Source: a virus
Direction: 5' to 3' (one strand)
Virus record (IMG/VR): IMGVR_UViG_3300025806_000067
Location: 1-39,497 of that record
DNA length: 39,497 bases
A program made the position numbers and the translations under genes. Below the pieces are notes generated by a model. The model had not been told where the DNA came from and searched no databases. It was given only the letters and a program-made list of their open reading frames with translations. This document shows, piece by piece, positions 4,812 to 31,315 of the stretch (position 1 is its first letter; the number at the start of each line of letters is the position of its first letter).

Positions 4812-7064
4812 ATGAATGATGTAGTAATTAGAATATTAGATACTAGTAATGGGGTTTTAGGAGATTTAGACTTATCTAACCCTAAAGATTTTCCATTGGC
4901 ATTAACTAAGGGTATTGTAAACTTAGATAACCTTAAAGCGCGTACAGGTACATTTAGTAAGAGTTTTAAAGTACCTAACACAAAGAACAATGCTAAGTTA
5001 TTATCTAATATTGATAATATAAACAGCCGAAAAGATTATAGGGATGCTTTAAACCGTAAACCATGTGTAATAATTGTTAATAATAATCAAATTGAAGGCG
5101 GTTTTATTCAGGTTAGTAAGGTTTTTGAAGGTTTTGAGTTAGATAGCTTTGAATTAGTTTTCTTTGGTAACAACATTGATTGGGTAAAAGGTGCTAGTGA
5201 GTTACAGTTAAGTGAAATAACATCATGGACTAACAACGCACAAGTATATAATCAAGCAGCTATAAATGGAGTTAATATTTTAGACTCAGATACATCTGAT
5301 ATTTGTTATCCTTATATTTCTAGGGGTGGTAATGCTGTAAGTAATAATACTGAGGTAAGGGATTTTTTACCATGTTTTTACTTAAGAAGTATATTAACTA
5401 GAGGAGCGAATAGTTTAGGATGGAACATTAGTAGTACTTTTTTAGATGGTGTTGATGTTAAAAGGTTAGCGTGTGATTTATCGAATAACTTTACGGTTAG
5501 AAATGACTTAGTAGAGGAAAGTGTAACTAGAGCAGAATTAACAACTGGGTCTTTTAATATAGGTGAAGGTGATGTAGTAAGTATAGTATTTAACAATGAT
5601 TCTACAGCACCTAATCAAGATGATAATGATAACTATGATACGGGTACAGGAGAGTATACACTTCCTTCAACAGGTAGGTATAATTTCAACGCTAATATAA
5701 AAATAGGTTCATGGACTGGAATAGATGAAGTTTTTATAGATGTTACCGTTGAGTTATTAAAAGGTGGTGTTGTTCAGGATTCATTTACTAGAGAGGTTAA
5801 TAAGTTTAATTTAACTGAATCAGTAACAGGTACATTATCTTCTATAAACTCAGCAGGTTCTAATTTACGTATTAGGGTTTCTTGGGATGCTTCTGTAAAT
5901 ACAGGAACTGCTAATGGTATTGTTAAAACGGGTTCTTTTTTCGATGTTCAAAGGAGTTCAGAAATAATAGAGGGTGATACTTTTGATTTAAACGATATAA
6001 TACCTACTAGCATAAAGTTAATAGATGTTATAAACGATTTTACTAGAATGTTTAATATTTACTATTGGACTGATGTAAAAACTAAAACCATATACTTTGA
6101 ACCTAGAGATACTTTTTTTAAATCACAAGCAACCGCTATTAATTGGAGTGATAAACTAGATTTAAGTAAGAATTACGAAGTAGATTATGTTTCTAGTTAC
6201 AAAAGAAATGTAGAGTTTAAATATAAAGACTTAAATAATGATGAATGGTTAAAAGGGTGGCAGGATGAGAATAAAAGAACCTACGCAAGATATAACCATG
6301 TTTTACCTGATAGATTTGCAGAAGGTACTAATACAGTTGAATTAGGTTTATTTAGTGCTATTTATGCTCAAACATCATCAGAAGCTACCCCAATATTAGG
6401 TACTAGCTTTGATTCAGAAATAGCTTTTACTACTGTAAAAATATGGAGTGCGTTCGTTCCTGATGAAGAACCACCTACCGAAAGAGTTTTAGATTATAAC
6501 CCTAAGATATTTCTATTTAATAATGGAGGTCAAACCGCTTTAAGTGGTGTTGATAGGCAAATAAATTTATTTGGAACTCCAACTACTACTATTCCTTATG
6601 GAATATTTGAGGACTACAACAATACTACAAGTGATATTAACCTATCCTTTACTGGTGATGATGGTTTGTTTTCCACTTACTATTCTAAGATGTTTAAAAA
6701 CATTGAAGAGGGAGGTAGATTGGTGGCATACTTTAAACTTTCAAGTGTAGACATAGAAAACCTAGACTTTAGAAAGCTAGTTTACATAGAAGCACCTAGC
6801 AAGGTTAAAGGTTATTACTTAATAGAAAAGGTTATAGATTTTAAGCCAATAGAGGAAGGATTGACAAAGGTTAGTTTATTTAAGTTTGAAAACTTAGGAA
6901 GCGTACCAATAGACCCTAACCAACAAGGGAATAATGATAACAATGGAGATAATGGAAATAACCCACCTACATTAAACCCTATTTACGTAGAAGATGGTGG
7001 TTTTTTAATTGAGGTAGGAATAGTAGATCCTGTAACGGGTAACATTGAATTAGTTTATTTATAG
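4812..7064 (+). CDS. distal tail/baseplate protein
   Basis: 750 aa. The N-terminus (about residues 1-130, with LDNLKARTGTFSKSFKVPNT, then a strand-rich stretch) resembles the tail-associated protein often found beside the tape measure gene in Bacteroidetes phages. The middle is beta-rich and the region about 420-560 has Trp/Tyr-rich segments. Near residues 700-720 there is a flexible Asn/Asp/Gly run, a linker to a short C-terminal domain. It probably forms part of the tail tip or hub; no peptidase motif is recognised. It ends 4 nt before the tape measure gene. Confidence 0.6.
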   Translation: MNDVVIRILDTSNGVLGDLDLSNPKDFPLALTKGIVNLDNLKARTGTFSKSFKVPNTKNNAKLLSNIDNINSRKDYRDALNRKPCVIIVNNNQIEGGFIQVSKVFEGFELDSFELVFFGNNIDWVKGASELQLSEITSWTNNAQVYNQAAINGVNILDSDTSDICYPYISRGGNAVSNNTEVRDFLPCFYLRSILTRGANSLGWNISSTFLDGVDVKRLACDLSNNFTVRNDLVEESVTRAELTTGSFNIGEGDVVSIVFNNDSTAPNQDDNDNYDTGTGEYTLPSTGRYNFNANIKIGSWTGIDEVFIDVTVELLKGGVVQDSFTREVNKFNLTESVTGTLSSINSAGSNLRIRVSWDASVNTGTANGIVKTGSFFDVQRSSEIIEGDTFDLNDIIPTSIKLIDVINDFTRMFNIYYWTDVKTKTIYFEPRDTFFKSQATAINWSDKLDLSKNYEVDYVSSYKRNVEFKYKDLNNDEWLKGWQDENKRTYARYNHVLPDRFAEGTNTVELGLFSAIYAQTSSEATPILGTSFDSEIAFTTVKIWSAFVPDEEPPTERVLDYNPKIFLFNNGGQTALSGVDRQINLFGTPTTTIPYGIFEDYNNTTSDINLSFTGDDGLFSTYYSKMFKNIEEGGRLVAYFKLSSVDIENLDFRKLVYIEAPSKVKGYYLIEKVIDFKPIEEGLTKVSLFKFENLGSVPIDPNQQGNNDNNGDNGNNPPTLNPIYVEDGGFLIEVGIVDPVTGNIELVYL

Positions 7065-13838: not shown

Positions 13839-13845
13839 ATGCACT

Positions 13846-13920
13846 ATTTTAACAGTATTGCAAAAAGTCATTCCGCTACGCTCCACGATCGCACAAGCTC
13901 TTTTGCAAAGGTGTTATAAA
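13846..13920 (-). repeat. attC-like palindromic element downstream of the leftward gene
   Basis: Read on the minus strand it starts TTTATAACA (13912-13920) and ends TGTTAAAA (13847-13854). The element at 31232-31289 on the plus strand has the same two ends. Inner arms are CTTTTGCAA (13900-13908) and TTGCAAAAAG (13858-13867), complementary with one bulged base. The interior (13868-13899) is visibly richer in G+C than the phage and, on the minus strand, includes GCGTAGCGG, similar to GCATAGCGACCG in the element at 30720. It lies just after the stop of the only minus-strand gene. Confidence 0.55.
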
Positions 13921-13928
13921 TAATAAAA

Positions 13929-14111
13929 TTATTCGCTTAGTCCTTCATTTAAACTTTCTGCAAATTTCTTTATTATTTGCTCTTTGGTTATTAAACCATC
14001 TTTTACGGCTTTCTGTATTGCGCCCCTTGGTAAATCTTCATCTTCTTTTCTATCATAATAAAGAAAGTCGGATACTAAATCTTCTATTGTATTTTCTATG
14101 TTTTCAATCAT
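13929..14111 (-). CDS. 60-aa acidic protein, only leftward gene
   Basis: MIENIENTIEDLVSDFLYYD then RKEDEDLPRGAIQKAVKDGLITKEQIIKKFAESLNEGL. Acidic, helical, with the motif YYDRKEDEDLPRGAI, which I associate with small phage and bacterial hypothetical proteins. It has its own -7 box (TAAATTTG on the minus strand, 14183-14190). It is flanked by palindromic elements whose ends match those around the tiny ORFs at 30.5-31.3 kb, so it looks like a single-gene cassette inserted backwards between the tail-tube and portal operons. Function unknown. Confidence 0.75.
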   Translation of the reverse strand: MIENIENTIEDLVSDFLYYDRKEDEDLPRGAIQKAVKDGLITKEQIIKKFAESLNEGLSE

Positions 14112-14120
14112 AATTTTTCA

Positions 14121-14181
14121 GTTTATAACATTATTTAAAAATCATTAAAACGCTTTTTACATTTAGCGTTAATGCAATAAT
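14121..14181 (-). repeat. attC-like palindromic element upstream of the leftward gene
   Basis: On the minus strand it reads from ATTATT (14176-14181) and GCATTAACGCT through a loop to AGCGTTTTAATG, then AATAAT and finally TGTTATAAAC (14121-14130), 9 nt before the ATG. AACGCT pairs with AGCGTT and ATTATT with AATAAT. The closing TGTTATAAACTGA is identical to the sequence before the ORF at 31017. The element thus marks the upstream edge of a cassette. Confidence 0.5.
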
Positions 14182-21305: not shown

Positions 21306-21534
21306 ACAAAAGTTAAGTGACTTCCTGCTAGAAACTGGTGGGAAGTCTAACAAGGGTATAGCTGATTCTATAAGAGATGTAAAAGGCTTAAAAAATCCAC
21401 ATGATAACGTAGTTATATTTCAAGAAAAGCGTAGTATATGCGCTACGGCTGAAAAGCTACAAAACATAATAAGAGCATTTGATAAAGATGCAGTACTAAC
21501 GATTAAAACAAAAAAAGGACAATGGAAGGGTTAA
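21292..21534 (+). CDS. hypothetical early protein, 80 aa
   Basis: Two in-frame ATGs at 21292 and 21298; either fits. The sequence MNKQKLSDFLLETGGKSNKG, then SIRDVKGLKNPHDNVVIFQE and KAVLTIK-like C-terminus is basic at both ends. It overlaps the Rad52-like gene by 13 nt, so it is translated with it; it may assist recombination. No motif found. Confidence 0.65.
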   Translation: MTMNKQKLSDFLLETGGKSNKGIADSIRDVKGLKNPHDNVVIFQEKRSICATAEKLQNIIRAFDKDAVLTIKTKKGQWKG

Positions 21535-22043
21535 GTAAAAAATTAGAAGCTAAGAATATTGATTTTAAGGTTAAGCAGTTAATTAAAGTTGGCGTGAAAG
21601 TAAAAGCTTTATTATTAGCTTATAAAGATGCTAGGGTTGATATGTCTATACTTGATGAGGTTGCAGGTGTTGGTAATTGGCAAAATGACTATAAAAGAGA
21701 TACTAAAGGAGTTTTACAGGGTGGTATAGCTGTTAAGTTTGGAAGTGAGTGGGTTTGGAAGTGGTCAAACGGTACTGAATCAGCAATGGAAAAAGAAAAA
21801 GGTGAATATTCTGATGCTTTTAAAAGAGCAGGTTTTATGTGGGGTATCGGTAGGCATTTATATGACTTTCCTAATTTATTTATTGACTTGAAAGATGATG
21901 AATATTACGATAAGCAAGGTAAGCCAACAGCTAGTAATAAATTAAGACCTAATGACTGGAATTGGTTTATAGATTATGAAAAAGGCATAATAGGAGCTAG
22001 AGATAAAAAAGGTGATGTAAGAGTTAATGAAAAAATTAAGTAA
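21522..22043 (+). CDS. Rad52/22-like single-strand annealing protein
   Basis: 173 aa. The Rad52/Sak-type signature is present: ARVDMSILDEVAGVGNWQND (residues about 38-57), WVWKWSNGTESAMEKEKGEY (about 86-105) and SDAFKRAGFMWGIGRHLYDF (about 106-125). These proteins form rings that anneal complementary single strands in phage recombination and end repair. The adjacent genes for an SSB-like DUF3127 protein and a VRR-NUC nuclease complete a recombination module. Confidence 0.88.
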   Translation: MEGLSKKLEAKNIDFKVKQLIKVGVKVKALLLAYKDARVDMSILDEVAGVGNWQNDYKRDTKGVLQGGIAVKFGSEWVWKWSNGTESAMEKEKGEYSDAFKRAGFMWGIGRHLYDFPNLFIDLKDDEYYDKQGKPTASNKLRPNDWNWFIDYEKGIIGARDKKGDVRVNEKIK

Positions 22044-29923: not shown

Positions 29924-30202
29924 ATGACAAAGGGACAATTAACAACGGAAAGTAATATACTACTAGCTTTATTTAGAGCAACTGTAGAGCAGTCAAGTTT
30001 TTTAAACGGTCAGTTAAACCAAAAGCCAAAGCAAGTTTTTAACGTATGGCAGAAACAAGGTTATGAGCTGCTAGACCAGTTAGAGAAAAGAAACATAGCT
30101 AACGAGGAATACTACGAAGCTATAACCGATGTAATACATAATATTATAAAGGGTATAAGGGATGAAAGTAATAATGTACATGATAACGTACAAAAAGATT
30201 AA
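29924..30202 (+). CDS. hypothetical early protein, 92 aa
   Basis: Helical, Gln/Asn-rich: TVEQSSFLNGQLNQKPKQVF, NVWQKQGYELLDQLEKRNIA, ITDVIHNIIKGIRDES. No catalytic motif and no membrane segment. 8 nt after the nuclease gene. Its last residues contain the DNA TGATAACGTAC, which may or may not be the edge of a cassette-type element. Confidence 0.6.
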   Translation: MTKGQLTTESNILLALFRATVEQSSFLNGQLNQKPKQVFNVWQKQGYELLDQLEKRNIANEEYYEAITDVIHNIIKGIRDESNNVHDNVQKD

Positions 30203-30239
30203 TGCTACAACTAAACAATGTTATTAACGAATTAAAGAG

Positions 30240-30488
30240 ATGAACAAAATGGATAAAAAAACAATGACTTTAAAATGCTTTATTCCTAATAATGCAAAAA
30301 CAGATGCTTTTGATAATTTAGATATTAAAGACACTATAATTTTAATAGATACACATGATGAAAGCAAAGTTAATAATGTTGTTTTAGATGCTGTTATAAA
30401 ATGCGATTGTGAACTAGAAAGGTACGAACGGGCAAAAATGGAATTAGATTATAATAAGTGTATGGACTGTAAAAAAGAAATACAATAG
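30240..30488 (+). CDS. hypothetical protein, 82 aa, CxC and CxxC
   Basis: Start at 30240 (a second in-frame ATG is at 30249). The C-terminal half has KCDCELERYERAKMELDYNK then CMDCKKEIQ, so four Cys that could bind zinc. It ends 4 nt before the palindromic element at 30492 and is the last gene before the tiny-ORF array. It may itself be the first cassette, but no clear element precedes it. Confidence 0.65.
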   Translation: MNKMDKKTMTLKCFIPNNAKTDAFDNLDIKDTIILIDTHDESKVNNVVLDAVIKCDCELERYERAKMELDYNKCMDCKKEIQ

Positions 30489-30491
30489 TTT

Positions 30492-30595
30492 TTTATAACG
30501 TTTTGGCTATGATTTGCCTTAACACCTAAGAACTTAAAAGTATATTATAAACTTAACAAGAGGTTAATTATAGCCCTTGTTAGCAAATCGTTAAT
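30492..30595 (+). repeat. attC-like palindromic element 1
   Basis: Left end TTTATAACG (30492-30500), right end CGTTAAT (30589-30595). Inner arms GATTTGC (30511-30517)/GCAAATC (30583-30589) and TTAACACCT/AGGTTAA; another short stem is TTAACAAG (30553-30560)/CTTGTTA (30576-30582). It fills the whole gap between the stop at 30488 and the ATG at 30597. About 104 bp, the longest of the array. Confidence 0.55.
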
Positions 30596-30596
30596 A

Positions 30597-30725
30597 ATGG
30601 ATATAGAAAAAGAATTTGAAGAACTAAGACAGCTCATAATTGATACTTATATTGAAAATGAGCAGAATGTAATGGATAAAGCATTAGAAAAACTAGAGAA
30701 GATAAAAAAAGAAGTAGGAGCATAA
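30597..30725 (+). CDS. cassette-like ORF, 42 aa
   Basis: ATG 30597 to TAA 30723-30725. MDIEKEFEELRQLIIDTYIE then NEQNVMDKALEKLEKIKKEV: one acidic amphipathic helix followed by a Lys/Glu helix. The stop codon lies inside GCATAATG, the left arm of the next element, as stops do in integron cassettes. No function recognised. Confidence 0.5.
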   Translation: MDIEKEFEELRQLIIDTYIENEQNVMDKALEKLEKIKKEVGA

Positions 30726-30793
30726 TGTTTGCTAATGGATAAAGCTAAAAATAAGCATAGCGACCGAAGGTTATTTTTTAGGTTGTGTTATGC
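30720..30793 (+). repeat. attC-like palindromic element 2
   Basis: Left arm GCATAATG (30720-30727), right arm TGTGTTATGC (30784-30793). Inner arms CTAAAAATAA (30745-30754)/TTATTTTTTAG (30771-30781) around GCATAGCGACCGAAGG. Outer GCATAA pairs with TTATGC. The left side is longer than the right, leaving unpaired bases, as in attC. The left arm is identical to that of element 3. Confidence 0.6.
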
Positions 30794-30817
30794 ACCATTA
30801 ATTTAGACAAGATAATT

Positions 30818-30958
30818 ATGAAAACAGATATAGAAATAAGAGATAAACTAATGAGTTTAACTACAAATAATGAAAGAAGAAAACTTTTATTTGAATGGGT
30901 TAAAACTGGGGTAGTAAACTTCAAACAATTCAATGCACTTATTTATTATTGTGCATAA
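30818..30958 (+). CDS. cassette-like ORF, 46 aa
   Basis: ATG 30818 to TAA 30956-30958. MKTDIEIRDKLMSLTTNNER then RKLLFEWVKTGVVNFKQFNA and LIYYCA. Helical and basic. The stop sits in GCATAATG, the left arm of element 3. The ORF is bracketed by TTATGCAC (30788-30795) and GTGCATAA (30951-30958). Confidence 0.5.
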   Translation: MKTDIEIRDKLMSLTTNNERRKLLFEWVKTGVVNFKQFNALIYYCA

Positions 30959-31006
30959 TGTTAAGAATAAAAATCTACGCAGTTGTTTTTATACTGTGTT
31001 ATAAAC
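30953..31006 (+). repeat. attC-like palindromic element 3
   Basis: Left arm GCATAATG (30953-30960), right arm TGTGTTATAAAC (30995-31006). Inner arms ATAAAAA and TTTTTAT around TCTACGCAGTTG. The right end TGTTATAAACTGA is identical to the one upstream of the leftward gene at 13929-14111. A 20-aa frame (30958-31020) runs through it. Confidence 0.55.
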
Positions 31007-31020
31007 TGATGGAGATATGA
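30958..31020 (+). CDS. 20-aa hydrophobic peptide (doubtful)
   Basis: ATG overlapping the previous stop, MLRIKIYAVVFILCYKLMEI, TGA at 31018-31020 overlapping the next ATG. It could be a coupled membrane peptide, but the stretch is better explained as palindromic element 3. Confidence 0.15.
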   Translation: MLRIKIYAVVFILCYKLMEI

Positions 31021-31238
31021 AAAAATTTGTTAACGCTTCAAACATTGTTGAGGCAGGTATTTTAGAACCTTACATAAACTCAGGAGAAAGTTGGGATCCA
31101 ACACCTTCTCGAAAATGGAGTTTAGTACTTGTAACTAATGCTGTTATTGATGGATTCCCTTATAGAATAGAAAAGGAATACGAAACCAAAGAAGAGTGCG
31201 AAGAAATATTATTAAAGATGAACTTAATTTGTTTATAA
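31017..31238 (+). CDS. cassette-like ORF, 73 aa
   Basis: MKKFVNASNIVEAGILEPYI then SGESWDPTPSRKWSLVLVTN and a helix KEYETKEECEEILLKMNLIC. Beta-strand then helix. Bracketed by GTTATAAAC (30998-31006) and its exact reverse complement GTTTATAAC (31231-31239), with the TAA stop (31236-31238) inside the latter. Function unknown; the largest of the three array ORFs. Confidence 0.6.
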   Translation: MKKFVNASNIVEAGILEPYINSGESWDPTPSRKWSLVLVTNAVIDGFPYRIEKEYETKEECEEILLKMNLICL

Positions 31239-31289
31239 CATGAAAGCAAAACGCTGCCTTTTTCAGGTGGCTTTTGCTGCTTGTTAAAA
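31232..31289 (+). repeat. attC-like palindromic element 4
   Basis: Left end TTTATAACA (31232-31240), right end TGTTAAAA (31282-31289), the same ends as the minus-strand element at 13846-13920. Inner arms AGCAAAA (31245-31251)/TTTTGCT (31272-31278), then CGCTGCC with GGTGGC. It closes the array; a normal terminator follows immediately. Confidence 0.6.
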
Positions 31290-31315
31290 GCCGTTTTAAT
31301 GGCTTGTTTTTTTTT
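31288..31315 (+). terminator. intrinsic terminator after the array
   Basis: AAGCC (31288-31292)/GGCTT (31301-31305), loop GTTTTAAT (with possible extra A-T pairs), then G and nine T. It isolates the upstream genes from the terminase unit. Confidence 0.8.

Follow-up and report, generated by a model that had tools for sequence, protein, structure and literature searches.

An integron-like gene-cassette array of inverted polarity in a phage related to those of Flavobacteriia

The array, its elements and a second site

The window analysed here, an IMG/VR virus record taken at its full length of 39,497 bp, is related to Flavobacteriia phages and bears the marks of a tailed phage, with genes for a terminase, a portal, a head maturation protease, a tape-measure protein, an HNH endonuclease and an Erf-like annealing protein (21522-22043). 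The closest matches of the terminase are found in Croceibacter, Chryseobacterium and Cellulophaga phages, which makes a marine flavobacterium the probable host. Five attC-like elements alternate with four small ORFs on the plus strand (30203-31291), upstream of the terminase genes (~32.1 kb). On its left, this array is joined to a conserved gene of 92 aa (29924-30202, plus strand), whose stop codon TAA ends at the left junction, and it is closed by a hairpin resembling an intrinsic terminator, AAGCCGTTTTAATGGCTT, with a T-run (31288-31313, plus strand); terminator-like sites lie around 31253-31305. The four elements and three ORFs that an earlier note had described within 30492-31289 are all present, but the array extends further to the left, since a fifth, short element (30203-30229) and a fourth ORF (30240-30488) precede that interval.

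Between single ORFs, the elements display the palindromic R''/L''...L'/R' architecture of an integron cassette array. They were scored with a covariance model trained on 17 elements from other phages, with the window sequence excluded, this being a home-made model and not the published attC model. The left boundary of the array is formed by element E0 (30196-30229, or 30203-30229 when counted from the junction), with R'' AGATTAA followed by TGCTACAACTAAACAA and R' GTTATTAACG, and almost no hairpin. Its left junction GATTAA| is common to the window and to the related contigs L002 and L036, and 44 bp of it recur with 95-100% identity in L010 and L014. Together with the ORF at 30240-30488 (82 aa), E0 makes up cassette C0 (30203-30498, from AA|Y to AA|C). 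Element E1 (30491-30587; E 3.4e-4) consists of R'' TTTATAAC, L'' GGCTAT, L' ATAGCC and R' GTTAGCAAA (30579-30587), the last of which corrects the right end CGTTAAT assigned in the earlier note, and with the 42-aa ORF at 30597-30725 it forms C1 (30499-30735). In E2 (30728-30795; E 0.021), R'' TTTGCTAAT and R' GTTATGCAC enclose the arms TAAAAATAA/TTATTTTTTA with spacers of 10 and 3 nt, folding to -6.8 kcal/mol on the top and -2.8 kcal/mol on the bottom strand; its cassette C2 (30736-30958) carries the 46-aa ORF at 30818-30958. E3 (30951-31006; E 3.6e-7), with R'' GTGCATAAT, arms ATAAAAA/TTTTTAT, R' GTTATAAAC and spacers of 7 and 5, is 84-86% identical to elements of phage L319, and together with the 73-aa ORF at 31017-31238 it constitutes C3 (30959-31238). 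All these features lie on the plus strand, as does the fixed terminal element E4 (31231-31291), which is matched only weakly by the covariance model (E 0.7) and folds to -12.5 kcal/mol on the top and -10.7 kcal/mol on the bottom strand. L002 retains E4 and L036 part of it, with different sequence throughout to its left; the junction is ATAA|CATGAAAGC at 31238/31239, and this conserved terminal hairpin could be attI-like or a resident attC.

The elements depart from the strict R boxes (GTTRRRY / RYYYAAC), which GTTAGCA, GTTATGC and GTTATAA fit only in part, and in several R'' the last three letters are AAT, not AAC. The stop codons had been thought to lie inside the left arm, and two of them do fall inside R'', but that of the first ORF in that description (30723-30725) sits upstream of R'' TTTGCTAA, 2 nt away from it. 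As single strands, the window's elements fold modestly (z about 1 to -2.2), E3 folding no better than shuffled sequences and E0 having no hairpin, so some of them may be worn out. Searches of the locus returned no Rfam family and no tRNA, neither the locus nor ORF 31017-31235 had a BLAST match in the phage collection, a search of viral contigs revealed no relative of the 73-aa ORF, and Pfam and PHROGs gave nothing significant for the window's cassette proteins.

When an integron cassette is excised, its start and its end make up one folded site, so that the two ends of a cassette are expected to be complementary to each other and may differ from the ends of any other cassette. In the array, three of the four ORFs are bracketed by exact 8-nt inverted pairs of the form GTT-xxxxxx ... 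xxxxxx-AAY, as had been noticed before: TTAGCAAA (30580-30587) with TTTGCTAA (30728-30735) in C1, TTATGCAC (30788-30795) with GTGCATAA (30951-30958) in C2, and TTATAAAC (30999-31006) with GTTTATAA (31231-31238) in C3. The R' tail at the start of a cassette is complementary to the R'' at the end of that same cassette, as in integrons. An inverted match of at least 8 nt has a probability of 0.0068 per random segment pair of the window, which for three of four ORFs amounts to ~1e-6, and it occurs in just one of the 62 other plus-strand window ORFs tested. Across phage arrays, cassette ends complementary over at least 8 nt were found in 15 of 44 ORFs, against 0.9 expected from mismatched pairs.

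A second site of the same kind (13845-14176, minus strand) sits between structural genes and holds a single cassette. Its attC-like element, TTAACGCTAAATGTAAAAAGCG...GTTATAAAC (14121-14176), is the best covariance-model match in the window (E 2.3e-8) and is 84% identical to an element of the TerS-side array of L014. The cassette (13914-14168) consists of this element and an ORF of 60 aa (14111-13929), with the 7-nt bracket TTATAAA/TTTATAA, and it is followed by a fixed terminal hairpin, CACCTTTGCAAAAGAGCTTGTGCG... (13845-13913), resembling the terminal hairpin AACAACCTTGTAAAGAAAGCTTGAGCG at site 1 of relatives. Other cassettes or arrays occupy site 2 in L316, L317, L319 and L320.

Exchange of whole cassettes and the limits of the unit

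The phage contig L002 (G760) matches the window with 99.86% identity over 23,214 bp, with 99.98% identity (two mismatches) over 8,269 bp on the other side, and with 100% identity at site 2. At site 1, between GATTAA| (30202) and |CATGAAAGC (31239), it nevertheless carries two unrelated cassettes (70 and 74 aa), window positions 30203-31228 being replaced. Because G760 breaks off 116 bp to the left of the array, its left flank is short, but L036 (93% identity) has both flanks, and there a third content is found, with a single ORF of 83 aa. L015 and L017, which are 94% identical, differ by one cassette each at the corresponding place, and the isolated Polaribacter phages P12002S and P12002L have different arrays within flanks that are 100% identical. 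Whole cassettes are gained and lost as units, and the locus is hypervariable. The comparison with close relatives, for which the earlier note had named retention of all ORFs with point changes only as the contrary outcome, contradicts that outcome: the units swap whole.

Comparative junctions place the limits of the units at AA|Y, giving 30203-30498, 30499-30735, 30736-30958 and 30959-31238, and therefore each gene moves together with the hairpin that precedes it. The cassettes drawn previously by a G|TT rule (30590-30786, 30787-30997 and 30998-31282) do not survive comparison with homologous cassettes. In eight sequences, the right flank is constant from AAC onward and the sequence just before it differs, and it is likewise constant from AAC in the P12002 pair and in the window, L002 and L036; P12002S and P12002L switch at AAC|AACGG. 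C0 is 78% homologous to a cassette of phage G765 (L316) that lies at site 2 on the opposite strand, the homology starting at TAA|YGCTAC and stopping at TTTTTTATAA|. The stop codon of C0 (30486-30488) falls 10 nt inside the unit, so selection to keep the reading frame intact does not account for this junction. Judging from these junctions, strand exchange would occur on that side of the element which has the long spacer, in its AA|Y core, and not at G|TT. The canonical arrangement, with exchange at the G|TT of R' downstream of the ORF and folding of the bottom strand, was not found, and the canonical G|TT case would be equivalent to the phage sites only if the cassette is read as inverted. One junction of P12002L is a hybrid ~14 bp inside the element, at a microhomology of 5 bp, which is what would be expected of homology-driven exchange and not of site-specific cleavage. 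A further point against the scheme favoured here is that the homologous methyltransferase cassettes of L054 and L063 differ in their hairpins on both sides. Breakpoints on the 3-nt side that appeared in L015, L017, L022 and L025 were set aside as probably due to a regular expression reading the near-symmetrical terminal hairpin backwards; the L015 and L017 sequences have AAC junctions.

Chromosomal arrays and the polarity of the phage elements

Hairpins of the same kind are retrieved from Flavobacteriales chromosomes with the element core AACGTAHTTGTATAWGR; a scan of genome contigs with ACGGTTAAAGTAA...GTGTTA gave chance matches only. A search for the recombinase belonging to these hairpins led to a family of 350-410 aa, which occurs in 38 of the 60 Flavobacteriaceae sampled, and directly behind its stop codon most of the loci read show a short palindrome and an attI-like G|TT, followed by single-gene cassettes with hairpins of ~120 bp between them. 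Recombinase-headed arrays are present in the Flavobacteriaceae chromosomes L107, L108, L111 and L260-L305, with at least 15 cassettes in L296, and several contigs end just downstream. Complementarity of at least 8 nt between cassette ends was found in 55 of 135 chromosomal ORFs (13 loci), against 0.9 expected. In L290-L305 it goes no further than 9 nt (48 of 135 at exactly this length), with none at 10 nt or more, which suggests that the length of the R box is sharply defined in chromosomal cassettes.

Against the IntI model TIGR02249, the recombinase scores 197-204 bits, below the cut-off of 265, and against a XerA model ~213-221 bits; its best alignments by sequence are with XerC/XerA-like structures (PDB 4a8e, 5hxy). 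It has no counterpart to residues 181-243 of IntI4, which we take to be the stretch with the IntI-specific extra helix. From these comparisons, the host enzyme classes as XerA/IntI-like, lacking the IntI-specific insertion and falling outside the IntI family. The window has no match to two host recombinases of this family. A search for canonical IntI (TIGR02249, E<=1e-55) matched none of 399 Flavobacteriaceae, none exceeding the cut-off, a result that leaves absence unproven because no control genome matched either. Of the expectation that a host integron integrase would be needed, the part that stands is a likely host recombinase, of XerA/IntI-like type; the integrase proper found no such backing, as no IntI passed the cut-off in that set with its silent control. 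For Bacteroidetes, the IntegronFinder 2.0 paper mentions just In0 elements found earlier and a single complete integron, from Salinibacter (PMC9024848), and the open-access papers searched yielded no description of these flavobacterial arrays, which is not proof of novelty. The recombinase-headed arrays look like an unrecognised integron lineage of Bacteroidota. Such an integron-like system would be widespread in Flavobacteriales, and integron surveys keyed to IntI appear to miss it.

By comparison with the chromosomal arrays of Flavobacteriales, the phage elements face the opposite way with respect to their genes, and four measures concur in this. With the direction of the motif fixed, ORFs run forward in 27 of 28 viral elements with a callable strand and in 6 of 6 from isolates, but in reverse in 11 of 11 chromosomal elements (Fisher 7e-9). 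Of the two spacers between R boxes and inner arms, the left one is the longer in 10 of 12 phage elements and the right one in 43 of 45 chromosomal elements; the three elements of the window that could be measured fit the phage pattern. The better-folding strand is the top strand in 23 of 27 phage elements and in 4/4 of the window, and the bottom strand in 25 of 27 chromosomal elements; the bottom strand had previously been taken as the folding one. Finally, the phage covariance model matches the chromosomal arrays on the strand opposite the genes in 47 of 47 cases. In chromosomes, it is the long-spacer side that joins the next cassette or the attI-like site, and phage junctions fall on that same side, so one recombination polarity explains both, the phage genes being the ones that lie back to front. 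This inverted polarity poses a sharp puzzle as to the interplay of cassette orientation, replication strand and expression. Against this pattern, L163, alone among the 28 viral contigs with paired elements, has ORFs of chromosomal polarity. The two phage spacers of 'wrong' sign were traced to a spurious 166-bp pairing (L104) and to a terminal hairpin in a shifted register (L003), and a 204-bp pairing in L014, counted on the phage side of the tally, is spurious too.

Origin, exchange and cargo of the cassettes

Very probably, the locus represents a gene-cassette array of integron type, resident in a Flavobacteriia phage, its cassettes being exchanged whole, with inverted polarity, and probably by a host recombinase. 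The idea of an integron-like array without an integrase of its own, already put forward in the earlier note, draws strong support from whole-unit turnover, end complementarity and the recombinase-headed chromosomal arrays. Each cassette comprises one small ORF preceded by its own attC-like palindrome, and the complementarity of the R'' at its end and the R' at its start would follow from their being folded into one site on excision. Whole-cassette exchange takes place at two fixed positions, 30.2-31.3 kb (plus strand) and 13.9-14.2 kb (minus strand), each closed by a conserved terminal hairpin that may behave like attI or a resident attC, the last cassette abutting it. Relative to chromosomal arrays, the phage genes read toward and not away from this terminal site, and they are probably expressed by read-through from the upstream phage operon, which would stop at the terminator that follows 31288. 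Most likely, the exchange is carried out by the XerA/IntI-like host tyrosine recombinase that heads chromosomal arrays, presumably acting on the folded plus strand of phage DNA, a single-stranded substrate, during infection. Homologous annealing between elements contributes as well, as the hybrid junction of P12002L and the phage annealing protein indicate. Recombination itself is read here from the comparison of sequences, and that the encoded proteins bring a benefit is an inference.

Stem-loop elements between hypervariable small phage ORFs are also known from T4-type phages, where PeSLs are described as mobile regulatory cassettes (Arbiol 2010, Comeau 2014, via PMC4503421) and as mediators of shuffling (PMC4503421). 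The locus might similarly consist of promoter/terminator stem-loops among which homologous or annealase-driven exchange shuffles ORFs with no site-specific recombinase involved, and the Erf-like protein encoded by the phage, the 5-bp microhomology inside an element of P12002L, the position of the elements 5' of each gene and the terminator-like sites near the end of the array all fit such an origin. However, PeSLs are conserved promoter-terminator motifs that act via homology, whereas the ends in the window are cassette-specific and mutually complementary. Such shuffling fails to predict ends that are complementary within a cassette and differ between cassettes, junctions that fall at one dinucleotide, or recombinase-headed chromosomal arrays of the same elements, and we regard it as unlikely; a scan for promoters of sigma-70-like type showed no enrichment (14 vs 9.3 +/- 3.6). 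Still less probable is that the hairpins are riboregulators or terminators conserved with their genes, the variability being ordinary mosaicism: a hairpin does precede each gene and a T-run does follow the terminal one, but no Rfam family was matched, the complementarity spans the whole ORF, and hairpins and ORFs are replaced completely between phages that are 99.9% identical. Near-identical phage pairs rule out both a pure riboregulator and mere point divergence, and we give hardly any weight to this possibility.

Canonical cassettes, with R'' near the stop codon and cut at G|TT, could also have been captured by chance from host integrons, as in an ordinary phage CALIN. CALINs in phages are already known: Qi et al. 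(2023) described them in virulent phages, Polaribacter phage P12002L among them, and of six phage attC sites that were tested, five, including one from P12002L, recombine with IntI1 (PMC9892861), which makes the function of this type of site plausible. The stop codons in or beside R'' would agree with such a capture too. But the observed limits of the units are AA|Y and not G|TT, and four measures show the elements to lie the other way round from those of chromosomal arrays, an arrangement not expected of host cassettes copied unchanged; chance capture of this kind therefore appears highly improbable. Like the CALINs of Qi et al., the integron-type array favoured here combines attC-like sites and small cassettes with no integrase, and the P12002L and P12002S loci hold the same type of element; the present analysis adds exact unit exchange, a second site, AA|Y junctions and the inverted polarity, where just 'divergent directions' had been noted in P12002L (PMC9892861). 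The locus would function in the manner of an integron cassette array, and would best be classed as a variant, of inverted polarity, of the CALINs borne by phages, with ties to a flavobacterial integron-like system that appears to have been overlooked.

The locus is not a canonical integron array, as strict R boxes, G|TT after the ORF and IntI were all looked for and not found, and of the intI and attI that a complete integron has beside its array, the window offers no match to the two host recombinases and, in the terminal hairpin, a candidate attI at most. With sedentary chromosomal integrons (IntI, attI, attC) the system shares single-ORF cassettes, complementary ends, strand-biased hairpins and, in the host, an array beside a tyrosine recombinase; it differs in that this recombinase stays below the TIGR02249 cut-off and has no IntI insertion, and in that the phage copies have no integrase and carry their genes inverted. 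The nearest relatives of solved structure, by sequence, are the XerA/XerC-like recombinases, but the flavobacterial family lies directly upstream of cassette arrays, and to our knowledge the enzymes of PDB 4a8e and 5hxy are not cassette recombinases. On balance, though with less assurance than for the phage locus itself, we favour the view that Flavobacteriales and their phages share an unrecognised integron lineage, with a XerA-like recombinase lacking the IntI-specific domain, and that the phages keep a back-to-front cassette pool of their own, whose members would pass between phages in the course of infection and would lack the usual route to expression if captured by a host array. The array gives phages a modular system of accessory genes with traceable, exact units, and it offers a direct account of one group of hypervariable 'ORFan' loci found among marine phages.

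The second cassette of L002 (471-692) encodes an HTH protein of 74 aa that is similar to plasmid antitoxins (PHROG 1381, E 1.3e-7), and L017 has a cassette protein of 229 aa (5633-6322) where L015 has an ORF of 69 aa. DNA methyltransferases of 215-254 aa are encoded by cassettes of flavobacterial phages (L054:8800-10800, L063:10400-13100, L103, L104 and L106), which suggests counter-restriction cargo. A family of small ORFs sharing a VNNVVLDDVIK-like motif is represented in the window (30360-30485), L316, L010 (5196-5230) and L014 (4438-4472), and its remaining parts and 5' elements seem to recombine between cassettes. Finally, one cassette is apparently non-coding (L012:872-1053), with direct repeats of TATACCCGATAAGGTATTATA inside the bracket TTATGTGTA/TACACATAA.
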